From positions 1 through 62,895 of the forward strand of contig JACQCA010000068.1 of the NCBI GenBank assembly GCA_016201865.1: a DNA stretch of 62,895 nt, given 5' to 3'. Of this stretch, positions 831 through 15,652 are shown piece after piece (the first letter of the stretch is position 1; every line of letters begins with the position of its first letter). The stretch comes from Nitrospirota bacterium. GTDB taxonomy: Bacteria; Nitrospirota; Nitrospiria; JACQBZ01. The position numbers and the translations under genes are program-made. Below the pieces are notes generated by a model. That model worked only from the letters and a program-made list of their open reading frames with translations, made no database searches and was not told where the DNA came from.

Positions 831-2069
831 TCATACAATTTCAATTTCCGGGAAAGGAAAAATCATCTTACCACCATCCGCCAAATACTCCTTCTCTCGA
901 CGGAGTATCCCATCCTTAAAGTGCCAAGGCAGAACCAGAAAGTAATCCGGCTTCATCGCTCGGGCCTCTTTCTCCGAAATAATTGGAATATGTGTCCCAG
1001 GAGTAAAACATCCAAATTTATCGGGATTCACTTCCGCAATCGCAGGAATATCCTTAACAGTCAGCCCACAGAACTGGAGCACTACGTTGCCTTTAGTCGA
1101 GGCGCCATAGCAGAGGATTTTCTTTCCGTCAGCAGTCAGGGTGCGAATTAAACGCGTCAGATCGTCCCTATGCCGAAAAACACGCTCCTCAAAGTCGCGA
1201 TAGGGATGTGGAGTCTTCAACCCCATGCGCTCTTCTTGTTCCAGCAGCCAATCAATCACAGCATCGTTGGGTCGTATGTTTCGGTTTCCCTCCTTCGTTG
1301 CGGTCACGGCAAAGCTACCCCCATTGATCGAGTTCATTACCACATCAACAACCTTTAGCCCAGCGGCACGCACTATTTTTTGAATGACGGTTAGGGAATA
1401 ATATTCCAAGTGTTCATGGCAAATTGTGTCGTAAGAATTAAGCCTTAACATAGACGGCATGTAGCTCTGCTCGAAATGCCAGATGCCTTTGGCATCAAGG
1501 ATCGATCCGATTTGGCGCGCGAACTCCACAGGGCTTTCCAGATCGTAAAACATGGCAATGGACGTAACAATCTTGGCGGGCTTCTTCTCTACAGACTGAT
1601 AGGCGTCGCGAGAAAAGAAATCGGGAACGAGCCGGATGTCATCCGTATAAAATTGCGCAAACTTCTTTCCCGTGGGGTCAATGCCGATACGTTTGATATT
1701 AGTGGTGGAGTAAGCTTTGAGTGTAGTGGCATCGTTGCTACCGATGTCCAACACCACATCTCCGGGATTGAGCGGAATCAACCGCTCCAAGTGACGCACT
1801 TTTTCAGTTAGGTGATCCACCATTGATTGATTGAGGCCGGAGCGGTAGCCATAATTCTCACCATACATTTCATTGGTATCGTATGAATGCCTAAGTTGCA
1901 GGAGCCCGCTCTCCGGACACCAAACCAATTCCAGAGGTCCAGAAGTTACATTTTCGTTTCGATGCTTCGGAAAGACACCGGTCAATACCTGGTGCCCGAG
2001 ATTCAGCACGGAAATTAAATGATTACTACCGCTTACTCGGCAGGCGCCGATTTCTTTATAGGCAGTCAT
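831..2069 (-). CDS. NDP-hexose C-methyltransferase-type SAM methyltransferase
   Basis: A 412-residue class I methyltransferase of the three-part family that includes sugar C-methyltransferases such as NovU/TylCIII. An N-terminal Methyltransf_13-like segment (about 1-60) is followed by a Rossmann SAM-binding domain (VVLDIGSNDATTLKAY around 105-120) and a C-terminal Methyltransf_14-like domain with CYGASTKGNVVLQ. The N-terminal zinc knuckle keeps only its first cysteines: CRVSG and CPESG stand where CxxC pairs are expected, so metal binding there is doubtful. It sits between the truncated epimerase and the large glycosyltransferase, so it probably modifies a nucleotide sugar used in, or capping, the O-antigen. 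The substrate cannot be read from sequence. Confidence 0.8.
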   Translation of the reverse strand: MTAYKEIGACRVSGSNHLISVLNLGHQVLTGVFPKHRNENVTSGPLELVWCPESGLLQLRHSYDTNEMYGENYGYRSGLNQSMVDHLTEKVRHLERLIPLNPGDVVLDIGSNDATTLKAYSTTNIKRIGIDPTGKKFAQFYTDDIRLVPDFFSRDAYQSVEKKPAKIVTSIAMFYDLESPVEFARQIGSILDAKGIWHFEQSYMPSMLRLNSYDTICHEHLEYYSLTVIQKIVRAAGLKVVDVVMNSINGGSFAVTATKEGNRNIRPNDAVIDWLLEQEERMGLKTPHPYRDFEERVFRHRDDLTRLIRTLTADGKKILCYGASTKGNVVLQFCGLTVKDIPAIAEVNPDKFGCFTPGTHIPIISEKEARAMKPDYFLVLPWHFKDGILRREKEYLADGGKMIFPFPEIEIV

Positions 2070-2183: not shown

Positions 2184-5100
2184 TTAGCAATTACTGGCTG
2201 TTCCATCCGGTTTTATCACCTTGTACCAATGATTCTCCAGAATCACGTTCAGCAGTTGTTCGGCGCTCTGTTCCCATGTCAGGCGTGAAACTTTGGATAC
2301 ATCCGGTAAATGTCCAGTACGCTCCAGCTCAAGCCACATTTTAACTGTTTCAGCGAGACAGGACGGCGATTCGCGCGAAAAATACGTTATATGATTTTCA
2401 CCGATTTCACGAAAAACCGGGATATCTGATGCGATCACAGGTAGTCCATGCTGTGCCGCTTCAACAAGAGGCAATCCAAATCCTTCTCCGGCCGATGGAA
2501 AAAGCAAAGCCGTGGCGTGCTTGTAACAATACTGCAACTCTGCATCGTTTGGATTCTCAACGAAAAACAGTCGAAGTCCATTTTCCGGGTGCTGGCGAAC
2601 ACGTTCCACAAATTCGTCAATCATCCAACCCTTCTTGCCTGCGATACATAAATTTAGATTGTATCCTTCTGACCATAGACGCTCAAAGCCATCCAACGCG
2701 AGAGCATGATCTTTGCGGGGCTCAAGTGTCCCTATTATCAAAAAGACCTTGCTTTTAAAAACGTCCGGAAGACCAGCACGAATCTGGGAGTCTTGATACA
2801 AGATCGGTAAGTCAGCGCCCAAATGCCAATAACCGATTTTCAGTTCTCGATTCAACCGCACCGAATTTTGCTGGACGTACTCAATTACCTCATCGGCGAT
2901 GGACTTCGAAATGCACACCAAACCGTTACTCTCACCGATAGCCTTATTGATAACACGTCGAAACCAATCACTTGAACCTTCTATAACATGCTGTGGAAAC
3001 TTTATAGGCAGCAAGTCATAAACGACCGTAAATACTTTTCCACCCCCATCACGTATGCGTTTAAAAACAGTGTCGAACTCGCCATTCATTAGTTTTGCCC
3101 ACGATGAGTCGAGCATCAACAGAATATCATGATCTTCAATATCAACAGGCACTTGATGATGGCCCTCCGAAACAGCCGATTGCTCATGCGCGAGCAATAA
3201 ACCTTGAGACTGTAACCATGCTGCTGGGACTGCAAGTTGCCCATCAACCAACCTGACCGCCCGAGGTGAAAATCCCCTCCGGTTGGAACAATAGAGTTCA
3301 CGGATGATGCTGCGCACAACGCGTTGAATACCAGACCCCAAATCCTCCGACGTGATATGACTGACATCAATCATAATAGGTTGAGGGTTAAAGTTTGGCC
3401 CCGGAAGTGTCAGGGACGATGCAATCGCGTGCAACTCCGCGTCACCGACATCATGCGCTGCCAAGGTCGATCCAATATGAGATACGAGTGCATCACGCGA
3501 TATCGCGTTTTCGCGCACGACGGATTCATTAATTACAAGTGCATATTGGGCGGCGACCAGTTCTGGATTATGTACGCGTGCAATGTAATCGCGCCCGGCA
3601 ACGGAAAATTGCTCTCGGAGTTTTTTATCGTGACATAGATTAGTGATAGCTTTAGCCACTTCTTCTCTAGTAGGTTTGGCTGAAACCTTGCAAACGACTT
3701 CATCAGGGTAATCTGTATAGCTGGCATAGTCATTTACAATTACCGGCAAGCCGTGCGCGAGGCAATCCAGGACCCCTCTCGGAGTACCGCCCCGGCTATG
3801 GGTTCGTAGCTGTACCGCAACATCAGCAACAGTCAAGTACTGTTTATATATGTCCTCCGTCAGGAAACCCGTTACCCGAACTTGTTCGTGCAGACCGCTT
3901 TTTTTGATCGCCTGCTTTAACTGATCTCCAAAGCCGTCTTGTGCCAGTTCGCCTGCAAGCACCAGCTTGACCCTCGGATCGCGACATAGCTCCGAAACCT
4001 TGAAGGCTTCTAAAAGTAAGTCGCCGCATTTAGTAAAAACAATATGACCAAAAGTGGCAATGATGAAATCAGAGACCTCGAAACCAAGCACTTCACGGTT
4101 GGTTACACGCAAGGTGCTATCGACAACCGGCCCAACCGATATCGGTTGCCTAATAACATGAAATGGGGCACGCAACCCCTCTGGATAATTCTCGGCACAT
4201 ATCTTTATATTGTAGGCCGTATGAACAATGACCGCAGTTGCCGCGTCTAATATCCTCCGTGTGCATGGAAGGTCCAAAATCGCCTCACGCACCGATTCGT
4301 TTACCGCTCGAAAAGGAACGAGCGCTCTCCGCGCACGCGGCCCATGTGAATACAGCATTTCACTCGCGAAATATCCTAGGCGTCCAAAATTGGACTCGAT
4401 AAACTCTGCCAAACTACCAAGAAACACATCATGCAGTACCACCACTCCTGGATACTGTTGGAGCATATCGATCATATGTGCATGAAATTCAGAATTACCA
4501 AACTCATACATTACTGTGTCGTAGCGGCCGCGCAGTCGTGGAAATTCACGATAGGAACGGATTGTAAAATTGCTGGTCAACCACGGGTCGGATACATCGT
4601 AATCGTCAACAAACAGATCAATTTCAAAATTGGAGGACAAATACGGAAGCAGTTGCGCGCTATAGTCCGCAATTCCAGACCGGCAATTGGGCAACGGAGA
4701 AAAATAGGCGAGTTTGCATCTGGGCAGATAACCCGACACAACAACAGCATCTTTCGGGGTAAGCCGTTCTTTGGCCTCATGAAAAGCATTCAGCGCGCGG
4801 TTTGCAGTCCGTGTCCATGAAAACACCTTACTCCGTTTCAATCCTTGTTCCCGCAGCAAAGATTGAAAGCCTTGATCGGTCAGCACACGAGTCAGTGCCT
4901 TGGCCAACGCCTCAGGCTTCCTCGCATCAAATAAGGCGTCAGGTCGGCTAATGATTTCGGAGATGCTCGAATTATTCGCTCCTATCACGGGTGCGCCACA
5001 GGACATGGCTTCTAACGCCGGCAGTCCAAAACCTTCGTAGAGGGACGGAAACACAAATGCGTCACAGAGATTATAGAAAGTCACTAGGTCATGTTCTGGA

Positions 5101-5987
5101 ACGAAACCGGTGAACAGCACATCGGTTTCTCGCAGGCCACAGGCTCGTGCACGCTCCAAGAACATCGTTTTTCGATTCGGTTCAATAGAGCAAACAATGA
5201 CCAGCTTGTGGTTGTGGCGCAGTTCAGGTGATAGCAGCGCGTACCCTGCGATCGCGCCTTCCAGGTTTTTCCGGTGGTCATCTCCACTCGTATATAGCAC
5301 AAAGTGTTTTCCCAGACCATAGCGATGCCGAAATGCAGCCTCATCCTCGGGGGAGATTGGGGTCTTCCGAAAATTCTCATCAACAGCCCCCGATATATTG
5401 ATGATCTTTTCGGGCGCGATGCCGAGCAGATTTATCGCATCCTGGCGAGAGGCTTCCGAAATAGCCAATAATAAATCGCATTCTTTGAGAGTTCCCAGTT
5501 TTTCGTAATACCATTTCTTAAACCTGAGGTCAGCTAAATAGAAATCAGGAAATATCAGAGGGATGAGGTCATAAAGCGTCGCGGAACGGACACACCCTGG
5601 GATCTTTGGCAGGCAGTGTGGAACCACCGCCTGGCCAATGAACCCTTCAAAAGTATGGGCAATATGCAATACGTCCGGCTGCCATGAAACGTGGTGACGA
5701 GTGATTATCTCGCCCGCGACCGGTCGCCAGAAATCGTTTGTACTGCCGTAAGGAAGGGGAAACGGGGGATATCGGTAAGCATTGATACGGTTAGCTCGTA
5801 GAAGACCTTCGAGATTCTCGCTTATTGGGGCCAGAGTTTCTGGGTATAGACCGTTCAGGCTTATGCATAGATCGTCATGCCCTCGCTGGGCTGCAATATG
5901 CCGAGCAAGCGCCATTGAGTAGCGCCCGACACCACGATTACGGGAACCTTCTGTTTGACAAGCTTGTAGATCAAGAACAATTCTCAT
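2184..5987 (-). CDS. Three-domain GT4 glycosyltransferase (O-antigen chain synthesis)
   Basis: A 1267-residue protein made of three consecutive GT-B/GT4 glycosyltransferase units. Unit 1 covers about 1-410, with an intact E-x7-E motif at SLYEGFGLPALE (E318/E326). Unit 2 covers about 425-830, starting LAYFSPLPNCRSGIADYS. Unit 3 covers about 870-1250, starting IDVSHITSEDLGSGIQR, with E1168/E1176 in GEGFGLPLVE. Unit 2 has lost the motif: the equivalent stretch reads SRGGTPRGVLDC, so it may bind without catalysing. Multi-domain GT4 enzymes are typical polymerases of ABC-exported O-antigens. With GDP-D-rhamnose genes and Wzm/Wzt alongside, a cytoplasmic D-rhamnan-type polymerase is the best guess. 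Linkages cannot be predicted. Confidence 0.85.
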   Translation of the reverse strand: MRIVLDLQACQTEGSRNRGVGRYSMALARHIAAQRGHDDLCISLNGLYPETLAPISENLEGLLRANRINAYRYPPFPLPYGSTNDFWRPVAGEIITRHHVSWQPDVLHIAHTFEGFIGQAVVPHCLPKIPGCVRSATLYDLIPLIFPDFYLADLRFKKWYYEKLGTLKECDLLLAISEASRQDAINLLGIAPEKIINISGAVDENFRKTPISPEDEAAFRHRYGLGKHFVLYTSGDDHRKNLEGAIAGYALLSPELRHNHKLVIVCSIEPNRKTMFLERARACGLRETDVLFTGFVPEHDLVTFYNLCDAFVFPSLYEGFGLPALEAMSCGAPVIGANNSSISEIISRPDALFDARKPEALAKALTRVLTDQGFQSLLREQGLKRSKVFSWTRTANRALNAFHEAKERLTPKDAVVVSGYLPRCKLAYFSPLPNCRSGIADYSAQLLPYLSSNFEIDLFVDDYDVSDPWLTSNFTIRSYREFPRLRGRYDTVMYEFGNSEFHAHMIDMLQQYPGVVVLHDVFLGSLAEFIESNFGRLGYFASEMLYSHGPRARRALVPFRAVNESVREAILDLPCTRRILDAATAVIVHTAYNIKICAENYPEGLRAPFHVIRQPISVGPVVDSTLRVTNREVLGFEVSDFIIATFGHIVFTKCGDLLLEAFKVSELCRDPRVKLVLAGELAQDGFGDQLKQAIKKSGLHEQVRVTGFLTEDIYKQYLTVADVAVQLRTHSRGGTPRGVLDCLAHGLPVIVNDYASYTDYPDEVVCKVSAKPTREEVAKAITNLCHDKKLREQFSVAGRDYIARVHNPELVAAQYALVINESVVRENAISRDALVSHIGSTLAAHDVGDAELHAIASSLTLPGPNFNPQPIMIDVSHITSEDLGSGIQRVVRSIIRELYCSNRRGFSPRAVRLVDGQLAVPAAWLQSQGLLLAHEQSAVSEGHHQVPVDIEDHDILLMLDSSWAKLMNGEFDTVFKRIRDGGGKVFTVVYDLLPIKFPQHVIEGSSDWFRRVINKAIGESNGLVCISKSIADEVIEYVQQNSVRLNRELKIGYWHLGADLPILYQDSQIRAGLPDVFKSKVFLIIGTLEPRKDHALALDGFERLWSEGYNLNLCIAGKKGWMIDEFVERVRQHPENGLRLFFVENPNDAELQYCYKHATALLFPSAGEGFGLPLVEAAQHGLPVIASDIPVFREIGENHITYFSRESPSCLAETVKMWLELERTGHLPDVSKVSRLTWEQSAEQLLNVILENHWYKVIKPDGTASNC

Positions 5988-6065: not shown

Positions 6066-7367
6066 CTACATATTTCTCTGACGGGCAATTTCTTGTTTTA
6101 ATGCTGTGACCATCTCCATAATTTGTTGATCTTTTTTGCTTTCCGTAACCATGGAACTACTTTCAACCGACGTTTGTCCTGCCTCAATAAAAAAAGCAGA
6201 CCAAAACTTATCCCATAGTTTTGGATAGCGTGTTCGAAAGAAACGAGCGATATTCTTCGCCAGGTAAAAGCGTCTTAGGCGAGATGCAAGTCGGCGCACA
6301 ACAGCTTTGATTGACCGCTTAGCCAACGTCAACAATCTATTCGGGATACTATCAAAGTAATGATGGGCAACCCGGAAAAAATGAAAAATACTGCGCAGTG
6401 GAGCGGTCATCCTCCAAGAACGGCTGCGATATACCCCCGCGAGCTCTGCTTCACGCGCGCCGAGGCGCTGCTCCTGCTGTGCCATCGCATTTCTTGATTG
6501 GGTGAGTTCATTCTCCAATGCCTGAAACCGTTCACGGAATTGTGCGAGTTCGCCTTCGACACGTTCGGTGTGTTGCTGTGCTTCTATCACTTGGCGCTTT
6601 CGCACTCCAAGTTCCGTCTCTAATGCCTGCCCATGCTGACTGAGTTCTTCGATTTTAGAGTTCAGATTTGTACAAAACGGGGCGCTTGAGCTCCCGCTTA
6701 ACGCAAAGCCATCGAAAACAGTCGGCCCAAACTGAAACGCGCTCAGCAAATCGGTATGCTTAGAAGATACAAAAAAACGGTTTAGGCCGTCGAAGTATGC
6801 AAACTTATACCCCATCCCAAGGATCAGGTGCTCCCAGTCCTGATGGGATTCGGTTTGCGTAAGGGGCAACGTGCTCTCGATGACAACCACCCACGGTTTA
6901 ATTTCCGATCCCCAACTCTCAAGAACTTGGCGTTCGTACCCTTCCACATCGATCTTGAGCCAGTGAATTTCCCTCCCGGAAAACGGGGAAAGCGCCTCTG
7001 ATAGGGTAAGGCTCGGAACAATGAATTCGTGCACCCTAAAACCCTTTTCTTTGTGACGATAGGCAATTTCGCGATCGGCCGTGCTCAATCCCGTCTCGGG
7101 CAGCTCATAAAAAGTCAGAATCCCTTCCTTTGACGCAATGGCGGTTTGAATCACGACTTCGTCCGGGCGGTGCTCCCGCAACAGATCGGCATATGCCGGG
7201 ACAGGCTCAATATGCACGCCTCTCCAACCCTGCTCATAAAACGCCAGGCTCACCGAGTCTATGATCGGATGTTGTGCGCCCACATCAACATAAAAACCTT
7301 GCTTGATATGCTTGAGCGCACGCCACAGCATGACATCTTCAAAATTCTGAGCGTAAGATGTAAACAT
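6066..7367 (-). CDS. FkbM-family methyltransferase with C-terminal coiled coil
   Basis: Residues 1-215 form an FkbM-type SAM methyltransferase: FYVDVGAQHP near 25-33 binds SAM, then HIEPVPAYADLLREHRPDE and WLKIDVEGYERQVLE. Residues about 233-312 are a Glu/Gln/Arg-rich heptad stretch predicted to coil. They are followed by YRSRSWRMTAPLR and a basic, aromatic, amphipathic tail to 433 that could bind membrane. The gene begins directly after the wzt stop (TAAATG). A methyltransferase plus coiled coil beside a Wzt with a C-terminal sugar-binding domain recalls WbdD, which caps and measures O-antigen chains in E. coli O9a. The role is inferred from architecture and context; FkbM enzymes usually O-methylate sugars. 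Confidence 0.8.
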   Translation of the reverse strand: MFTSYAQNFEDVMLWRALKHIKQGFYVDVGAQHPIIDSVSLAFYEQGWRGVHIEPVPAYADLLREHRPDEVVIQTAIASKEGILTFYELPETGLSTADREIAYRHKEKGFRVHEFIVPSLTLSEALSPFSGREIHWLKIDVEGYERQVLESWGSEIKPWVVVIESTLPLTQTESHQDWEHLILGMGYKFAYFDGLNRFFVSSKHTDLLSAFQFGPTVFDGFALSGSSSAPFCTNLNSKIEELSQHGQALETELGVRKRQVIEAQQHTERVEGELAQFRERFQALENELTQSRNAMAQQEQRLGAREAELAGVYRSRSWRMTAPLRSIFHFFRVAHHYFDSIPNRLLTLAKRSIKAVVRRLASRLRRFYLAKNIARFFRTRYPKLWDKFWSAFFIEAGQTSVESSSMVTESKKDQQIMEMVTALKQEIARQRNM

Positions 7368-8612
7368 TTATACCATTCCGCGACGGTTTATATCAAAGAC
7401 CGCATCAAGCCAGCTGGTGCCAATAAAATACGGGTTGCCGGCATTCAACACATCAAACACAAGGGCGTTGTCTTTCCACTCATAGTTATTGACAAGGTGC
7501 GTGTCTGTGCTTACCAACGCAGGCGAAAATGAATAGGAACCTGGTCCCAAAGTGCAGGTAAATAAGAGCTTGAATTCAACAACCTGCCCCGCCCGCAGAT
7601 CTTCAACGATTTGCTTGGTGTGCCAGGTATTTGTTCCCCACACGACATGGCCCATCCGATCTCGCAACATGTAACCGAGCACCAGGCGCGGGATGTCGGC
7701 GTGGATTTTAACTATAGCTGTGAGTATCACACGCTGACCAACACGCACCAGATGCACTTCCTGGTTGGAGTCGGCATCGGTGAGACGGAAGTCAGCCAGG
7801 GTGGCCTCGCCTGTGCCAGACTTGGTAAGAATCCACCCGTTTTTCTGACGCAATTGCTCCACGGTGAGCTTGGCGTTCTCTTTTTCAGCAATGAGTGCGT
7901 TGTAGTAGTCCACAACCTCGTCAGGCAGCCCATCTCGCAGCGCCTGACCTTTATCCAACAAAATGACTCTGTCGCATAAGGTTTGAACATCGCCCATGCT
8001 ATGGGTAACAAAGAGCAGTGACGTGCCCTGTTCCTTGAACTGTCGAATACGGTCAAAACTCTTGTGTTGAAAATAGCTATCGCCTACGGAAAGCGCCTCA
8101 TCCACAATCAGGATCTCCGGTCTGAATGCGGTTACGGCGGCGAAGGCGACACGCATCTGCATGCCGCTTGAGTAGGTGCGCATGGGTTGGTCAAAGTATC
8201 CACCGATCTCGGCAAAGGCTTCTATTTCCGGCAGGGCGTGCTCAATCGCTTTCCGGCTGAATCCCATGAGGCCCGCGGCGTGATACACATTCTGCCGGCC
8301 GGTGAATTCAGGATTGAACCCCATGCCGAGTTCCAGGATGGCAGCGATGCGGCCATGGATCTGAACTTCGCCTTCAGTGGCACGCAGCGTTCCAGTGATT
8401 AACTTGAGCAGGGTGCTCTTGCCGGCTCCGTTTTGCCCGACAATGCCGACGGCCTCGCCGGAGGCGACGGAGAACGAAACGCCGCGCAATACCCAGTGTT
8501 CGGCTGCCGGCGTTACAGAGATACCAAACCATGAGAAAATCCGCTGCCATTCAGAGCGGTACTTGCGAAAGGCCTTACCAAGTCCTGAAACCTTTAAAAC
8601 GCATTCGCTCAT
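7368..8612 (-). CDS. wzt: O-antigen ABC transporter ATP-binding protein Wzt
   Basis: The 414-residue ATPase of an O-antigen exporter. The nucleotide-binding domain fills about 1-245: Walker A GQNGAGKST near 59-67, signature YSSGMQM, Walker B ILIVDEAL, and the H-loop FVTHSM. Residues about 255-414 match the Wzt C-terminal beta-sandwich, which in characterised systems recognises the modified non-reducing end of the finished glycan. The start overlaps the wzm stop by 4 nt (ATGA) and the fkbM-like gene follows at once, so export and capping genes are co-transcribed. The long C-terminal domain argues for a system that depends on a chain-terminating cap. Confidence 0.93.
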   Translation of the reverse strand: MSECVLKVSGLGKAFRKYRSEWQRIFSWFGISVTPAAEHWVLRGVSFSVASGEAVGIVGQNGAGKSTLLKLITGTLRATEGEVQIHGRIAAILELGMGFNPEFTGRQNVYHAAGLMGFSRKAIEHALPEIEAFAEIGGYFDQPMRTYSSGMQMRVAFAAVTAFRPEILIVDEALSVGDSYFQHKSFDRIRQFKEQGTSLLFVTHSMGDVQTLCDRVILLDKGQALRDGLPDEVVDYYNALIAEKENAKLTVEQLRQKNGWILTKSGTGEATLADFRLTDADSNQEVHLVRVGQRVILTAIVKIHADIPRLVLGYMLRDRMGHVVWGTNTWHTKQIVEDLRAGQVVEFKLLFTCTLGPGSYSFSPALVSTDTHLVNNYEWKDNALVFDVLNAGNPYFIGTSWLDAVFDINRRGMV

Positions 8613-9406
8613 AACACATCCACCATCTCGGCGCTGGCACGCCGGAACATGATGAAAGCCCCTCCCAATAAGATAAGGATGGCCGGGAATAGCCAGCCAA
8701 GCCCGACAAAATCAGGAGTCGTGTTAAAGAGCATGGCGTTCTGATAGCTCTGAACGATGGTAGTCATGGGGTTCATATGAAGCATCGGGCGGAAGGCTTC
8801 CGGCACGATGTTTGGGGCATACACGATGGGGGTGAACCAGAATCCAAGTTGCAATACGACAGGAACGACCTGACCCACATCTCGAATAAAAACATTAAGC
8901 ACACCAAGAACGAGGCCGATACCCAACGCCAATGCCAGTGTGACCAGCATCAGCAACGGCACCCAGGCTATTTGGACACCGGGGGCATGACCAAGCAATC
9001 CAAACACCACGATGATGGCCATAAATAGCAACAGGTTGTTGAATAGCGCAGAACCGGTCACGATCAGCGGCAGGCTGATACGGGGAAAGACGATTTTCTT
9101 GAGCAGATTTCCGTTGTCAATGAACAATGTGAGGCAGCGGTTGATGACTTCCGAAAACAACGACCATGCCAACATGCCTGACATAAGATAGATCGCATAA
9201 GCGAATTTGTTGTTAGCCAAGCCCGGGAGTCTTGCGGCCATCATTTCGGCCAGCACCAGCGCGAAGATGGCGGCTTGTGCCAGCGGATGAATAATCATCC
9301 ATAGCCCGCCAAGCCTGCTGCGGATGAAGCGCGCGCGAAACTCGGTCTGGATCGAGGAGAGAATGAAATAGCGATAACGCCAGGCGCTGAGAAGCATGTC
9401 CTTCAT
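8609..9406 (-). CDS. wzm: O-antigen ABC transporter permease Wzm
   Basis: A 265-residue ABC-2 type inner-membrane permease with about six hydrophobic helices. It has the usual amphipathic N-terminus (AWRYRYFILSSIQTEFRARF) and SRLGGLWMIIHPL ahead of the first helix. It pairs with Wzt through an ATGA overlap and would flip undecaprenyl-linked O-antigen to the periplasm. Length and topology are normal. It is the first gene of the AT-richer O-antigen export block; upstream lies about 200 nt with a decayed nucleotidyltransferase start and no clear promoter. Confidence 0.92.
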   Translation of the reverse strand: MKDMLLSAWRYRYFILSSIQTEFRARFIRSRLGGLWMIIHPLAQAAIFALVLAEMMAARLPGLANNKFAYAIYLMSGMLAWSLFSEVINRCLTLFIDNGNLLKKIVFPRISLPLIVTGSALFNNLLLFMAIIVVFGLLGHAPGVQIAWVPLLMLVTLALALGIGLVLGVLNVFIRDVGQVVPVVLQLGFWFTPIVYAPNIVPEAFRPMLHMNPMTTIVQSYQNAMLFNTTPDFVGLGWLFPAILILLGGAFIMFRRASAEMVDVL

Positions 9407-9623: not shown

Positions 9624-10622
9624 TCACGAGCCGACTTTTATCTTTTCTCTCCAATAGCCCAGAAGATCCCGCAGCGTCTGTTCGATCGGGATCTGGGATT
9701 TCCATCCGAACGACTTCTCGAGTTTTGAGGGATCGCAGAGCATGACCGGGACATCGTTCGGACGAACTCGAACCGGTTGTTGCTCCAGCTCGATTCCCTG
9801 CACCCGGCTTTCTGCCAGAAGCATTTTCACGATCTCTTCGACCCTCCATGCTTTTCCGCGGCCCACATTGTACACCTCGCCGCCCTCGGCCTTCTCAAGA
9901 ATCATCCGGTACGCCCTCACCACGTCGCGCACATCGGTAAAGTCTCGACGGGCTTCAAGGTTGCCGACATGAAGGACTGGCTTACGAACACCCTTCTCGA
10001 TTTCGGCGATCTGCTTGGCAAAACTCGAGCAGACGAATTGCTCAGATTGCCGGGGCCCGATGTGATTAAACGGCCGCACCCGGATCACCGGAAGCCGATA
10101 CGCCGCGGCATATTGATAGGCCGCCAGATCGGCACAGGCCTTCGTCACCCCGTACGGGCTCAGCGGCCGGAGGGGGGCGTCCTCATTGACCGGCAAGGCT
10201 TCTTCCGGTACACGGCCGTACACCTCGGCCGACGAGACGACCAGGGTTCTCGGGGCCGAACCCATCGCTCGGACAGCCTCGAGCATGTTCAACGTCCCCT
10301 GAAAATTGACGTCATAAACCAATCTCGGATCGGCATCCGCATCCGGGACAAACGCCGAACCGGCCAGGTGATAGACATAATCCGGTTTCACATCGGCCAG
10401 AACTTCCGCAACGGCCTTGAAATCCCGAACATCCCCGCACAAAATCGAGAGCCGCGACTCGATCGTCGCAAGATGCGGCCGATCCTGGGTAAGGGCCATC
10501 CCAAAAACTTGATACCCCTCGGCCACCAGCAGGTCGGCCAGATGGCTTCCGACGAATCCGGTCGCGCCGGTGATGAGGACTTTAGGCCTATCGTCGCGCG
10601 ATCTGTGGTTTGACTTTTTCAA
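9624..10622 (-). CDS. rmd: GDP-6-deoxy-D-mannose (GDP-D-rhamnose) reductase
   Basis: A 332-residue extended SDR. NAD(P) motif GATGFVGSH lies near residue 20, with SSAEVYG, catalytic YGVTK, then FNHIGPRQ and [16 protein letters not shown], the combination typical of RMD. RMD reduces the 4-keto sugar made by Gmd to GDP-D-rhamnose. It overlaps the end of gmd by 35 nt, so the two are translated together. With manB and manC upstream the pathway from mannose-6-phosphate is complete, so D-rhamnose is the likely main sugar of the exported O-chain. A GDP-talose-forming variant cannot be excluded. Confidence 0.88.
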
Positions 10623-11562
10623 GATCGGCCTCGACCATCATCCGGACCAGTTCCTCAAAGGAAACGTTCGGCTTCCAGCCCAATCGGGTTCTGGCCTTCG
10701 TCGCATCGCCCAATAAATGATCCACCTCGGCGGGTCTCAATAATTTCTTATCCGTCACGACAAAATCTTCGTAGTCCAGGCCGACATGTAAAAACGCCAG
10801 TCGCGCCAATTCCCGCACGGAATGCTTGACGCCCGTAGCCACCACGTAATCGTCCGGCCTCTCCTGCTGCAGCATTCGCCAGATCGCCTCGACATAATCG
10901 CCGGCAAATCCCCAGTCCCGCTCGGCATCGAGGTTGCCCAGCCGCAACTCCTTATCAAGACCTAACTTGATCCGGGCCGCGCCGTGGGCGATTTTCCTTG
11001 AAATGAATTCCAATCCGCGCCGCGGTGATTCATGATTGAACAGGATGCCGCTGCTTGCATAGAGGTCATAGCTCTCCCGATAATTGATCGTCAGATAATG
11101 GCCGTAGACCTTCGATACACCGTAGGGACTTCGGGGATAAAACGGGGTGTTCTCGTTCTGAGGGACCTCCTTCACCTTACCGAACATCTCGCTGCTGGAG
11201 GCCTGGTAAAATTTAATTCCACGATCCACCAATCGAATCGCCTCCAAGACGCGGCAGACCCCGAGGGCCGTAAATTCGGCCGTGAGGAGCGGCTGTTCCC
11301 AGGAAGTGGGCACAAAGGATTGAGCCGCGAGATTGTAGATCTCATCCGGCCGGATCTCCTTAATGAGATTGATGATCGAGAGCTGATCCAAGAGATCCGC
11401 CTGCCGAAGCTCGATTGTATCGCGGATGTGCTCGATCCGCTCAAAATTTTCGGTGCTTGCGCGCCGAACCATTCCAAAGACTTGATAACCCTTGGACAGC
11501 AGCAGTTCCGCCAGATAGGAACCGTCCTGACCTGTAATTCCGGTAATAAGCGCCTTCTTCAT
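10588..11562 (-). CDS. gmd: GDP-mannose 4,6-dehydratase
   Basis: A 324-residue SDR converting GDP-D-mannose to GDP-4-keto-6-deoxy-D-mannose. Visible are [15 protein letters not shown] at the N-terminus, [15 protein letters not shown], catalytic [13 protein letters not shown] and the [10 protein letters not shown] substrate loop. Length is normal for bacterial Gmd. It is first in the gmd-rmd pair, with a plausible sigma-70 promoter at 11632-11660 and a purine-rich ribosome site (AGAGGTGG) before ATG 11562. Confidence 0.95.
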
Positions 11563-11667: not shown

Positions 11668-13086
11668 CTATCGGTTGGAATGGATTCGGGATAGTTCGCT
11701 CTCGACAAAATCGCGGATTCGGTCCATCTGACCCGATGTCTTGGCCTCAAACCTCAAAACCAGCGCCGGCTGTGTGTTCGAGGCCCGAACCAGCCCCCAT
11801 CCGTCTTCAAAAACGATTCTTACGCCGTCGAGCGTGATCAGATCGCGGATGGGCATCGCGTCGGGAGAAGGGCGGGACCGCAACGCCTCGAACCGCTCTT
11901 TCAATTTCTGCACAACGGCAAATTTCAGGTCATCCGGACAGTCCCGGCGGATCTCCGGCGTGGAGCTGATCTTCGGAAGATCCGACAACAATTCAGACAA
12001 CGGTTTTCGGTATTCGGCCAGGATCTCGATTAATCGGCAGCCGGCATAGATCGCGTCATCATAACCGAAATAACGGTCCGCGAAGAAGATATGGCCGCTC
12101 ATCTCGCCGGCCAGCGACGCGCCCACTTCCTTCATCTTCGATTTGATCAGCGAGTGGCCGGCCTTCCACATCAGGGTTCGTCCGCCGTGTCGCTGAATAT
12201 CGTTATAGAGAATCTGAGAGGCCTTCACCTCGGAGATGATCATCGCCCCCGGCCGGCGTTTTAGGATCTCACGGGCCAGCACCACCAATAATTGGTCGCC
12301 CCACAGGATTTCGCCCCGTTCATCCACCACGCCGATTCGATCCGCATCCCCGTCGTATGCGATGCCCAGATCGGCCCGTTCGGCCTTGACGGCCTTGATG
12401 AGATCTTTCAGATTCTCCGGCACGGTCGGATCCGGATGGTGGTTCGGAAACCGGCTGTCCACCTCACTGTAGAGCTCGACCACATCGCACCCCATCGCCC
12501 TCAAGGCCTGCGGGCCGACCAGCCCGCCCACGGCATTGCCGCTGTCGACGACGACTTTAATCCCATGGGCATCCACGGCTTTAAAGTGATCTTTCAAATA
12601 GTCGAGATAAATCGGGATGATTTTTTCGGTTCCGGCCGGTGATGCCTCCCCCGTTTTAAAATCCTTCGCCTCGATCATCCGACGGAGTTTTTGAAGATCT
12701 TCTCCGTAGAGCGTCTCTTTCCCGATGCACAACTTGAACCCGTTGTACTCCGCGGGATTATGGCTTGCGGTGATCATGACCCCGCCGTCCACGGGATCCG
12801 CCCCAGGCGGATGAAACAGGGAAAAATAAAGCAGCGGCGTGGGACAGACGCCGACATCCGTTACGCCGACACCGGACGAGGTCAGCCCTCGAACCAACCG
12901 TTGATACAGCGCCGGCGAACTCTCGCGTCCGTCACGACCGACGGCGATCCGGCGAAGGTTTTGTCTCCGCAGCGTCGTGCCGAACGCTTTTCCGAGAAGC
13001 TCGGCCAGGTCGTGCGTGAGCTCCGACCCGACGATTCCGCGAATATCGTATTCACGAAAAATCTTATGCAATGACGAGATGGGCAT
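11668..13086 (-). CDS. manB: Phosphomannomutase/phosphoglucomutase
   Basis: A 472-residue alpha-D-phosphohexomutase of the AlgC/ManB type, interconverting mannose-6-P and mannose-1-P. The phosphoserine loop is ITASHNPAEYNG (about 104-115), the Mg-binding loop is DGDADRIGVVDE (about 244-255), the sugar loop is GEMSGH, and the C-terminal phosphate loop is RASNTQP. It follows manC by 23 nt and supplies mannose-1-P for GDP-mannose. The same enzyme could also serve as phosphoglucomutase elsewhere. Confidence 0.93.
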   Translation of the reverse strand: MPISSLHKIFREYDIRGIVGSELTHDLAELLGKAFGTTLRRQNLRRIAVGRDGRESSPALYQRLVRGLTSSGVGVTDVGVCPTPLLYFSLFHPPGADPVDGGVMITASHNPAEYNGFKLCIGKETLYGEDLQKLRRMIEAKDFKTGEASPAGTEKIIPIYLDYLKDHFKAVDAHGIKVVVDSGNAVGGLVGPQALRAMGCDVVELYSEVDSRFPNHHPDPTVPENLKDLIKAVKAERADLGIAYDGDADRIGVVDERGEILWGDQLLVVLAREILKRRPGAMIISEVKASQILYNDIQRHGGRTLMWKAGHSLIKSKMKEVGASLAGEMSGHIFFADRYFGYDDAIYAGCRLIEILAEYRKPLSELLSDLPKISSTPEIRRDCPDDLKFAVVQKLKERFEALRSRPSPDAMPIRDLITLDGVRIVFEDGWGLVRASNTQPALVLRFEAKTSGQMDRIRDFVESELSRIHSNR

Positions 13087-13109: not shown

Positions 13110-14543
13110 CTATGCCTTGCGCCCGTAATCATCCTGAAAACGCACGATGTCGTCTTCTCCCAGGTAATCGCCGTTCTGGACCTCGATGATCTGGAGCGGC
13201 TTCGCGCCGGGATTTTCGAGACGATGTTTCGTATTCATGGGAATATACGTGCTTTCGTTGACCTTGAGATCGTAGACCCGCTCGCCGCAGGCGACCCGGG
13301 CCGTCCCGGCCACGACGACCCAATGCTCGCTCCGCCGGTGGTGCAACTGAAGCGACAACCGGGCCTGAGGGTTCACCATGATCCGCTTGATCTTGTACCC
13401 CTCTCCGTTTTCAAGCACGGTAAAGCCGCCCCAGGGCCGCCAGACCGTTCGATGGACTTGATGCTCCTCGGCGTTGCGTTGTTTGAGGATCTCGACCATC
13501 TTTCGCACATCCTGCGCACGACGTTTATCGCAGACCAGCGTCGCGTCCTCGGTATCCACGACCACCATATCGGAAAGTCCGATCGTCGCCACAAGACGTT
13601 TGTCCGCATACAGGATTGAGTTACGGCTGCCCAGGTCGATGACGTTTCCGACCGTCACGTTCCCCGCGGAATCCGTGCGGCCGATCTGTTCGATGGCGGT
13701 CCAGCTCCCCACATCGCTCCAGCCCATCTCCACCGGCACGACCGCCAGGTTGCGATGAAGCCGCTCCAGCACGCCGTAATCGATCGAGACGGAATCCAGC
13801 CGTTCGTACACTTTATCGATCGTCTTTTCTTCTTTGGAGGTTCCCAGCGCATTCTGGATGGCGATCAACCCTTTGTACAACTTGGGTTGAAGATCCTTGA
13901 TCGCGGCCAGGATCGTTGAGGCTTTCCAGACGAAGATACCGCTGTTCCAGTAATACCGACCGTCATGAAGATAGCGTTTCGCGGTTGAAAGATTCGGCTT
14001 TTCAGTGAACCGGCCGACTCGGTAACCGGTCGGACCGTTTTTCAGCGACCCGCCTCGCCGGATATAACCGTATCCCGTCTCGGGTTGAAGCGGTTTCACC
14101 CCGAACATCACGAGCCATTCTTTCCTCGCAAGCCGTTCCGCGGCCCCGACGGCCCGAACAAACCGGGCGGTCTTGAGGATCACGTGATCGGCCGGCATGA
14201 CGATCATAACGGCCTCCGGATCTTTTCGGGCCAGTGCGACGGCCGCGAGACCGATCGCCGCCGCGGTGTTCCTGGCGGAAGGCTCGACAATCAAGCGGTC
14301 CGGCGGCAAAGAAACGACGGCGGACGCCTGCATCCGAACCGCATCCGATTGACGGCGGTGCGTCACCACGTAAATGTTTTCGGGTGGGGCCGCTTTCATC
14401 GCGCACCGAAGGGTTCGCTGGAGCATCGTCTCCTCGCCGATGAGCTTTAGGAGCTGTTTGGGATAGAACTCACGGCTGAGCGGCCAGAAACGGCTTCCGC
14501 TTCCTCCGGCTAAAATCACAGCGTAGATGTTGGATGGATTCAT
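13110..14543 (-). CDS. manC: Bifunctional mannose-1-P guanylyltransferase / mannose-6-P isomerase
   Basis: A 477-residue type II enzyme. The N-terminal nucleotidyltransferase domain carries LAGGSGSRFWPLSREFYPKQ, VMPADH and FTEKP. The C-terminal cupin isomerase domain carries RPWGGFTVLENGEGYKIKR and LQLHHRRSEHW. The open frame extends 100 codons further upstream, but that part is low-complexity Gly/Arg-rich and lies inside the upstream glycosyltransferase. The start chosen is ATG 14543, which overlaps that gene's stop as ATGA and begins the conserved IYAVILAGG. It makes GDP-mannose from mannose-6-P with ManB, feeding Gmd/Rmd. Confidence 0.95.
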   Translation of the reverse strand: MNPSNIYAVILAGGSGSRFWPLSREFYPKQLLKLIGEETMLQRTLRCAMKAAPPENIYVVTHRRQSDAVRMQASAVVSLPPDRLIVEPSARNTAAAIGLAAVALARKDPEAVMIVMPADHVILKTARFVRAVGAAERLARKEWLVMFGVKPLQPETGYGYIRRGGSLKNGPTGYRVGRFTEKPNLSTAKRYLHDGRYYWNSGIFVWKASTILAAIKDLQPKLYKGLIAIQNALGTSKEEKTIDKVYERLDSVSIDYGVLERLHRNLAVVPVEMGWSDVGSWTAIEQIGRTDSAGNVTVGNVIDLGSRNSILYADKRLVATIGLSDMVVVDTEDATLVCDKRRAQDVRKMVEILKQRNAEEHQVHRTVWRPWGGFTVLENGEGYKIKRIMVNPQARLSLQLHHRRSEHWVVVAGTARVACGERVYDLKVNESTYIPMNTKHRLENPGAKPLQIIEVQNGDYLGEDDIVRFQDDYGRKA

Positions 14544-15652
14544 GGGTTCCTCACGAGACTTTGATAAACCGCCTCGGTCTGGGCCACCATCGACTCGATC
14601 GAAAACTGCCGCTCCACGAAGCTGCGGCCCTGCCGGCCGAGTCGTCGGGCCAGATCCCGATCCCGGAGAAGGCTTAAAATCGCCTGGGCCAGCGCGACCG
14701 GATCGTTGGATGGAATCAGCCGCCCCGTCCGGCCATCGATGACCACTTCCCGATTTCCGCCCACGTCCGTCGCCACCACCGGAATCTCCATCGCCAGCGA
14801 CTCTCTCAAGACCCCCGGCAGGCCTTCCCCGGAGGTCGCGCAATTCACCGAAACATGCAACAACGGATAGAACCGCTCCACGTCATCGCGAAAACCGGTG
14901 AAGGTTACCTGTTTTTCTATGGCAAGCCGTCGGGCCTGAGCCTGCATCTCATCGAAATAGTCGCTCTTGTTGCCGATCGCCAAGAACCGGACGCGCGGCT
15001 CCTCTTTTAAGATCAAGGACGCCGCCTCCAAAAAAAGCCCATATCCCTTCCAGGGACGGTAATCGGCCACCTTTCCCACGACCCACGTCCGATCGTCGAT
15101 CCCGAGTTCCTTCCGAAGCGCCGGATCGGGAGAGGCCGGCCGAAACCGTTTCAGATCGATCGCGCCGTAGATCGTGACGACTTTCTCGGCCGGCACGCCG
15201 GAACGGATTAAGCTCTCCTCGACACTTTGGGCCACGGCGATGATCTTGTCCACGCCCGCGACCCACTTGGCCCAACGGAACGGATGCCTTCGAAGCGGAA
15301 AAGAGACCCGCCGCGTCGCCACCACCACCGGAACCCGCGCCGTAATCGCGGCCAACAATGCCAGCGTATGGGGTTTGGGTTTATGTGTATTTAAGACCTC
15401 GATCCGGTGCCGTTTCATAATTTCCCGAAGGCGAAACACCGCCTTTAAATCCCATTGCCCTCGCATCGGGACCGGTTCGACAAGGAGACCCGCTTTGGAG
15501 GCCTTCTCAGCCAGCGCGCTGTCCGGCGAGCAGACCACGACGACATGATGGCCCCGCTCGGCAAGACCCTTGCTCAAAAGCAGTACCTGATACTGCCCGC
15601 CGCTCCAGCCTCCGCCGGAATTGATCTGAAGGATTCGAAGCGAACGATCCAT
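14540..15652 (-). CDS. GT4-family glycosyltransferase
   Basis: About 370 residues, GT-B fold: N-terminal Glyco_transf_4 half (INSGGGWSGGQYQVLLLSKGL) and C-terminal GT4 half with GKVADYRPWKGYGLF and the E-x7-E region SGEGLPGVLRESLAMEIPVVA. It resembles the transferase at 26896-28014 throughout, so they are probably paralogues. The frame opens at TTG 15670, but ATG 15652 is preferred because it lies 8 nt after a -10 box at 15661-15666. Its stop overlaps manC (ATGA), so it heads the manC-manB transcription unit. The acceptor is unknown; O-antigen or core assembly is likely. Confidence 0.85.
   Translation of the reverse strand: MDRSLRILQINSGGGWSGGQYQVLLLSKGLAERGHHVVVVCSPDSALAEKASKAGLLVEPVPMRGQWDLKAVFRLREIMKRHRIEVLNTHKPKPHTLALLAAITARVPVVVATRRVSFPLRRHPFRWAKWVAGVDKIIAVAQSVEESLIRSGVPAEKVVTIYGAIDLKRFRPASPDPALRKELGIDDRTWVVGKVADYRPWKGYGLFLEAASLILKEEPRVRFLAIGNKSDYFDEMQAQARRLAIEKQVTFTGFRDDVERFYPLLHVSVNCATSGEGLPGVLRESLAMEIPVVATDVGGNREVVIDGRTGRLIPSNDPVALAQAILSLLRDRDLARRLGRQGRSFVERQFSIESMVAQTEAVYQSLVRNP

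Follow-up and report, generated by a model that had tools for sequence, protein, structure and literature searches.

The window analysed here is a stretch of 62,895 nucleotides of DNA from a Nitrospirota bacterium. It encodes an O-antigen ABC exporter, and the gene directly after wzt codes for an FkbM methyltransferase. This raises the question of which protein ends the O-antigen chains, how their length would be set and what the exporter would read. A preliminary description had proposed that this gene encodes a WbdD-like cap and ruler, in which an unrelated methyltransferase took the role that WbdD plays in E. coli O9a. Our comparisons make it very likely that the FkbM/coil protein methyl-caps a D-rhamnose-type O antigen and sets its length, and that the C-terminal domain of Wzt (Wzt_C) reads the mark.

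Gene order in the locus

The relevant features are all located on the minus strand.

13110..14843 (-): manC-like gene, start overcalled, GDP-mannose supply (manC domains in Pfam)
11668..13086 (-): phosphomannomutase-like gene, GDP-mannose supply (own sequence and context)
10588..11562 (-): gmd, GDP-mannose 4,6-dehydratase (TIGR01472 above its cut-off)
9624..10622 (-): rmd-like reductase, putative GDP-D-rhamnose formation (GDP_Man_Dehyd family; function from neighbours)
8609..9406 (-): wzm, exporter permease (ABC2_membrane in Pfam)
7368..8612 (-): wzt, ATPase of the O-antigen ABC exporter, 414 aa (Pfam; similarity to E. coli O8 Wzt)
7410..7823 (-): Wzt_C cap-reading domain of Wzt, residues 264-401 (PF14524)
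7476..7478 (-): codon of Wzt Trp379, equivalent to the methyl-lid Trp362 of Aquifex Wzt (alignment; Trp362 function from PMC9445017)
6066..7367 (-): fkbM/coil gene, 433 aa, proposed chain terminator and ruler (ORF adjoining wzt; Pfam FkbM and coil; AlphaFold2)
6708..7367 (-): FkbM methyltransferase head, residues 1-220 (PF05050; motifs in 31 relatives; class I methyltransferase fold)
6426..6680 (-): coiled coil, proposed ruler, residues 230-314 (COILS-type score; AlphaFold2; length variable among relatives)
6393..6425 (-): SRSWRMTAPLR motif ending the coil, residues 315-325 (near-invariant; common to E. coli O8/O9 WbdD and other terminator heads)
6180..6392 (-): basic amphipathic helices, residues 326-396, proposed membrane anchor (charge and hydrophobic moment; helices in the model; family tail aligns to the WbdD tail)
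6069..6137 (-): C-terminal helix, residues 411-433, proposed polymerase docking peptide (family-conserved; aligns with E. coli WbdD C-termini; helix in the model)
2184..5987 (-): 1267-aa protein with three GT4 domains, proposed polymerase, WbdA-related (Pfam, three GT1/GT4 stretches)

The genes are thus arranged in the order wzm, wzt, fkbM/coil and triple-GT4 gene. The fkbM/coil gene (6066-7367) adjoins the Wzt_C-type wzt (7368-8612) with no gap and lies 5' of the polymerase gene. The E. coli O9 and O8 clusters, read from strains HS and IAI1, respectively, both have the order wzm-wzt-wbdD-wbdA, and the triple-GT4 protein is homologous to WbdA of both. Because gmd, the rmd-like gene, the mutase gene and manC are located upstream, GDP-D-rhamnose and GDP-mannose are the likely precursors. 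Near the end of the window is a gene for a sugar C-methyltransferase (831-2069, minus strand; Methyltransf_13/14), so the polymer may contain a C-methylated sugar. Relatives of it are also found in L113 and L114, the other two terminator loci of the home phylum.

The FkbM head and the coiled coil

The FkbM domain (Methyltransf_21, PF05050) is found by Pfam at residues 28-189, with 94.1 bits against a cut-off of 22.7. The AlphaFold2 model, a monomer calculated from a 31-sequence alignment with a mean pLDDT of 85, shows a class I methyltransferase fold for the head. Across 31 relatives, the FkbM motifs (DxGA, GLST and the LKIDVEG region) show little or no variation. Pfam found no kinase domain in the protein, and a search of the PDB returned a chance match to the coil only. 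The sole other FkbM gene of this genome (G000 contig C18:1485-1958, locus L002; 419-aa open frame) is located on a different contig, and its product was not recognised as close to the query FkbM domain.

The head is followed by a coiled coil. A COILS-type score is near 1 over residues 257-312, with an unbroken single heptad register from about residue 231. The score was calibrated on shuffles of the protein, 2 of 500 of which reached the peak; this rules out a mere composition effect. Pfam gave coil-like matches at residues 233-311, and the model contains a continuous single helix of about 85 residues (230-314, pLDDT mostly about 90-95). More helices extend to residue 396, followed by a disordered stretch and a final helix at about 411-433. 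As the model is a monomer, oligomerisation of the coil is assumed. By the same score the neighbouring proteins contain no coil, apart from a borderline stretch in Wzt. The tail after the coil (residues 316-396) carries a net charge of +16, and its best 18-residue hydrophobic moment was reached by 30 of 1000 shuffles. The architecture given in the preliminary description, FkbM followed by about 80 residues of coil and an amphipathic basic tail, is therefore borne out.

Among relatives, the coil is the part that varies. In 31 members, the head extends to residue 221 (sd 1.3), and the stretch from there to the motif that closes the coil measures 52-175 residues. Tandem DNA repeats are present in 14 of 34 fkbM/coil genes, every time within the coil region, and in 11 of these 14 the period is a multiple of 21 nt; no DNA repeat was found in the coil of the window gene. 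Two Advenella proteins have near-identical heads and coils that differ by 14 residues in length. This variability is compatible with a ruler adjusted in steps of entire heptads.

The tail is homologous to that of WbdD

In the majority of FkbM members, and in several proteins with other heads, the coil is closed by the motif SxSWRxTxPLR. Of the 2213 ORFs in the collected loci that are 200 aa or longer, 65 contain it, 59 of them with a coil directly before it; none of the shuffled ORFs does. The motif or a close variant is present in both O8 and O9 WbdD. In the C-terminal helix, the family motif RARxIYxxLKxA is conserved, and it is degenerate in the window protein.

A tail HMM built from the FkbM proteins alone matched E. 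coli O8 WbdD at 305-423 (E 3.7e-13) and O9 WbdD at 589-706 (E 1.1e-11, both E-values relating to the local ORF set), nearly full length in each case. The alignment takes in the C-terminal IYxxL motif. Since this HMM begins at the very end of the coil, coil noise is ruled out as the source of the similarity. The window protein itself is 28% identical to O8 WbdD over 111 aa (E 9e-6). An HMM of the FkbM head found no match in O8 WbdD and a chance match in O9 WbdD. Because the tail profile matches both WbdD proteins while the head profile does not, the window protein is, at the level of sequence, a head swap, with FkbM placed on a WbdD-homologous ruler, anchor and docking tail. The idea that an unrelated methyltransferase took over the role of WbdD thus holds for the head, but the tail is related. 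We did not file the protein as WbdD, since its head is not homologous to the WbdD methyltransferase. What appears to be new is the FkbM head within a known WbdD-type terminator plan; it is the head that places the protein outside WbdD in the strict sense.

In E. coli, a membrane helix and the site that recruits the polymerase lie in the WbdD tail, and chain length is determined by coil length and site occupancy (PMC11231755; PMC3482155).

A 123-aa ORF in another locus (L065:353-724) matches the terminator tail only. It has in-frame stops upstream, is located directly before a second GT4 gene, and looks like the remnant of a lost terminator.

The predicted methyl-reading pocket of Wzt

As had been described, Wzt carries an extra C-terminal sugar-binding domain. 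Wzt_C (PF14524) is found at residues 264-401 with 108 bits against a cut-off of 30.4. The protein is 51% identical to E. coli O8 Wzt and 39% (140/359) to Aquifex Wzt. In the latter, the 3-O-methyl group of the cap is pocketed by Leu300, Thr346, Ala348 and Trp362, and substitution of Trp362 with Leu essentially abolished binding (PMC9445017). The equivalents in the window Wzt are Met315, Ser363, Ala365 and Trp379. The Asn313 and His355 contacts of the Aquifex protein are retained, and its His350 and Tyr233 contacts are replaced (Val367 and Asn238). By its residues, this pocket is of the methyl-reading type, with a Trp lid over a small hydrophobic methyl pocket.

The lid residue was compared with the head class in 171 distinct Wzt. 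Beside methyltransferase heads (n=60), it is Trp in 54, Arg in one and other or unaligned in five. Beside sulfotransferase or methyltransferase-kinase heads, it is Arg or Lys in 17/17. L113, with Arg beside FkbM, has a sulfotransferase gene between wzt and fkbM and was counted by hand as sulfotransferase. Exceptions are L209 (methyl head, Arg, poor alignment) and L233, L252, L082, L174 and L177, which are divergent or unalignable. The two E. coli systems follow the pattern: the lid is Trp in O8 and Arg in O9, and their caps are a methyl group and a methyl phosphate, respectively (PMC3482155).

In an ATPase-domain tree, head class switches about six times, and the residue follows in an average of 4.9 of five independent pairs; a sign test on five such pairs cannot drop under 0.06. 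The data are suggestive, not conclusive, that the lid residue tracks head class beyond ancestry. Pure ancestry as the cause of the Trp/Arg pattern was set aside on these approximately five independent switches, within that floor of the test.

A probable terminator slot 3' of wzt

A scan of public genomes gave 80 loci with relatives, in which the wzt-fkbM adjacency is kept across several phyla. We examined 29 adjacent pairs from these loci and from whole-genome samples. A multi-domain GT4 protein follows fkbM, or is fused to it, in every pair with enough sequence, and the fetched stretch contains gmd and/or rmd-like genes in 21 of the 29. The fusion is found in Pseudomonas carbonaria (L028), where FkbM, coil and the whole triple-GT form one 1776-aa protein that aligns to residues 1-1254 of the 1267 in the window GT protein. 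In twenty genomes with the pair, each searched in full, the FkbM proteins of the pairs measure 398-1793 aa and the eight others 181-382 aa. In the home phylum (396 genomes), three proteins with an N-terminal FkbM and a coil were found, those of the window, L113 and L114, each with a Wzt_C gene next to it or close by, and no coil was found in the other long FkbM proteins examined there. In Candidatus Regiella insecticola, the FkbM frame beside Wzt_C (L077:5995-6342) stops at 115 aa and tblastn similarity continues for 1.1 kb; this gene is probably broken.

To avoid choosing loci by similarity to the query, we turned to a single order and sampled 60 Wzt_C loci in 151 of its genomes. Wzt_C was assigned from Pfam and Wzt length, with our own Wzt_C HMM serving as a locator. 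For Wzt_C of at least 90 bits, a coil is found in the gene 3' of wzt in 26/34 and in the 5' gene in 0/34; at weaker Wzt_C loci it is found 3' of wzt in 3/21. The heads on these 3' coils are FkbM (5), Methyltransf_11-type, DUF4214 with Methyltransf_23, Methyltransf_24, sulfotransferase and WbdD-like methyltransferase-kinase. Given these differing heads, the position 3' of wzt appears to be a general slot for terminators, with FkbM as one of the heads that may occupy it.

Sulfotransferase heads are located directly after a Wzt_C-type wzt with a pocket Arg in L154, L155, L163-L167, L203, L210, L218 and L113 (6134-6862). Several have a coil and the SWR motif and some have GT domains; the one in L113 is a separate small gene. 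They suggest sulfate-capped O antigens. In L133, L134, L137, L138 and L142, a DUF4214-coil-Methyltransf_23 protein occupies the slot, and the Wzt pockets are nearly identical to those adjacent to FkbM. Possibly, two unrelated heads make the same cap.

The expectation that FkbM-coil genes sit next to Wzt_C exporters held for most of them, but about a third of the FkbM-coil-SWR proteins (11/37) have no Wzt_C gene nearby, and 8 of 11 such genomes searched lack Wzt_C altogether. Either capping can therefore occur apart from cap reading, or the coil serves other purposes. Another architecture, FkbM-long coil-DUF4214, is found mostly in loci with a short, KpsT-like Wzt or without Wzt (L004, L015, L020, L043 and L073).

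Proposed mechanism and alternatives

The cap-and-ruler reading draws support from the parts of the protein, the conserved operon and its order, the homology of the tail to WbdD, the WbdA-related polymerase and its natural fusion to the terminator in L028, and the methyl-type pocket of Wzt. We propose that the 433-aa protein terminates the chains of an O antigen that is exported by an ABC transporter and probably consists of D-rhamnose or D-mannose. The FkbM head would place a methyl ether on the non-reducing end of the growing chain and so stop elongation; by analogy to O8 and Aquifex, the methyl group may be at O-3. The coil of about 85 residues (about 13 nm) would keep the head off the membrane, to which the basic amphipathic tail is predicted to bind, and the C-terminal helix may recruit the neighbouring triple-GT4 polymerase. 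Capping would be restricted to chains long enough to reach the head, and coil length would thereby set chain length. Wzt_C would bind the methyl-capped end in its Trp-lidded pocket and license export. We infer the catalysis, the membrane binding, the ruler action and the dependence of export on the cap from these sequence features.

The protein could cap and measure chains without Wzt reading that mark, Wzt_C then reading something else. FkbM-coil-SWR proteins in genomes with a short Wzt or no Wzt_C indicate that capping can exist without a reader. This is nevertheless improbable for the window: the lid is Trp in nearly all Wzt beside FkbM heads and Arg or Lys beside heads for charged caps, matching both E. 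coli systems of known cap, and the wzt-fkbM adjacency is conserved across phyla. Less probable still is that FkbM acts on internal sugars, side sugars or a nucleotide sugar, with the coil only scaffolding the polymerase and chains stopped by other means. In its favour, FkbM enzymes in general have diverse sugars and metabolites as substrates, and Azospirillum O antigens contain O-methyl-D-rhamnose units (PMC4153317). Against it stand the homology of the whole tail to that of WbdD, the WbdD-type, sulfotransferase and other heads in the same operon slot and the shorter length of the remaining FkbM proteins of these genomes. That the methyltransferase is degenerate or inactive and serves solely as a structural ruler is hardly credible, as the FkbM motifs are invariant or almost so and nothing was found in favour of this reading.

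A cap-making, chain-measuring FkbM terminator may be one instance of a modular design. We lean towards a reading in which terminators share one homologous ruler, anchor and docking tail with interchangeable heads (FkbM, other methyltransferases, methyltransferase-kinase and sulfotransferase), and one Wzt_C pocket residue follows the head, with Trp for neutral methyl caps and Arg or Lys for charged caps. If so, sulfate-capped, Arg-read O antigens and coils retuned by changes in 21-nt repeats are predicted. Cap chemistry would be predictable from gene order and a single Wzt residue, and the coil repeats would offer a way to test the evolution of chain length. The observations suggest that O-antigen systems can swap the enzyme that ends the chain, retaining the measuring tail and either retaining or retuning the reader pocket. 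For proteins whose sole annotation is 'FkbM methyltransferase', the presence of a WbdD-type tail points to a concrete, checkable role.

Comparison with known systems

In the literature searched, which took in few subscription papers, we found no link between FkbM and Wzt/O antigen or wzm. Several characterized systems share parts of the plan. WxcB of Xanthomonas campestris is encoded in a rhamnan O-antigen cluster and is somewhat similar to WbdD; O antigen is missing from the wxcB mutant (PMC4878081). That similarity is to the WbdD-type methyltransferase/kinase, whereas the protein encoded beside wzt in X. floridensis (L065) is of the FkbM type. Klebsiella O7 ORF6 and O12 WbbB combine a catalytic head, a coiled-coil ruler and GT modules in one protein, as in the L028 fusion (PMC11231755). 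O7 uses a methyltransferase-kinase and O12 a Kdo transferase, and FkbM is in neither.

The Aquifex aeolicus WzmWzt, with a 3-O-methyl-Rha/Man cap (PMC9445017), resembles the window exporter in its Wzt_C and methyl pocket: Trp and Ala are shared, with Ser for Thr and Met for Leu in the window Wzt, but His350 and Tyr233 are replaced. Its terminator is unnamed in that paper, and the word methyltransferase is absent from the text.

E. coli O9/O9a WbdD has a homologous tail, a coil and the same operon position. However, the O9 WbdD kinase, which makes the methyl-phosphate cap (PMC3482155), is absent from the window protein, and O9 Wzt has Arg at the position of the pocket Trp. As a model, the O8 system, with its plain methyl cap, fits better than O9a because the window protein lacks a kinase domain and the pocket Trp is as in O8. 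The O8-type WbdD is without a kinase domain (PMC3482155). Like the window protein, it is located between wzt and a multi-GT polymerase gene, is of similar size (425 vs 433 aa), and contains an N-terminal methyltransferase, a coil, SxSWRxTxPLR, a basic tail and a C-terminal RAxxIYxxLK; its partner Wzt has the pocket Trp. Its head belongs to another methyltransferase family than FkbM. With this difference, the window protein most likely works like E. coli O8 WbdD.
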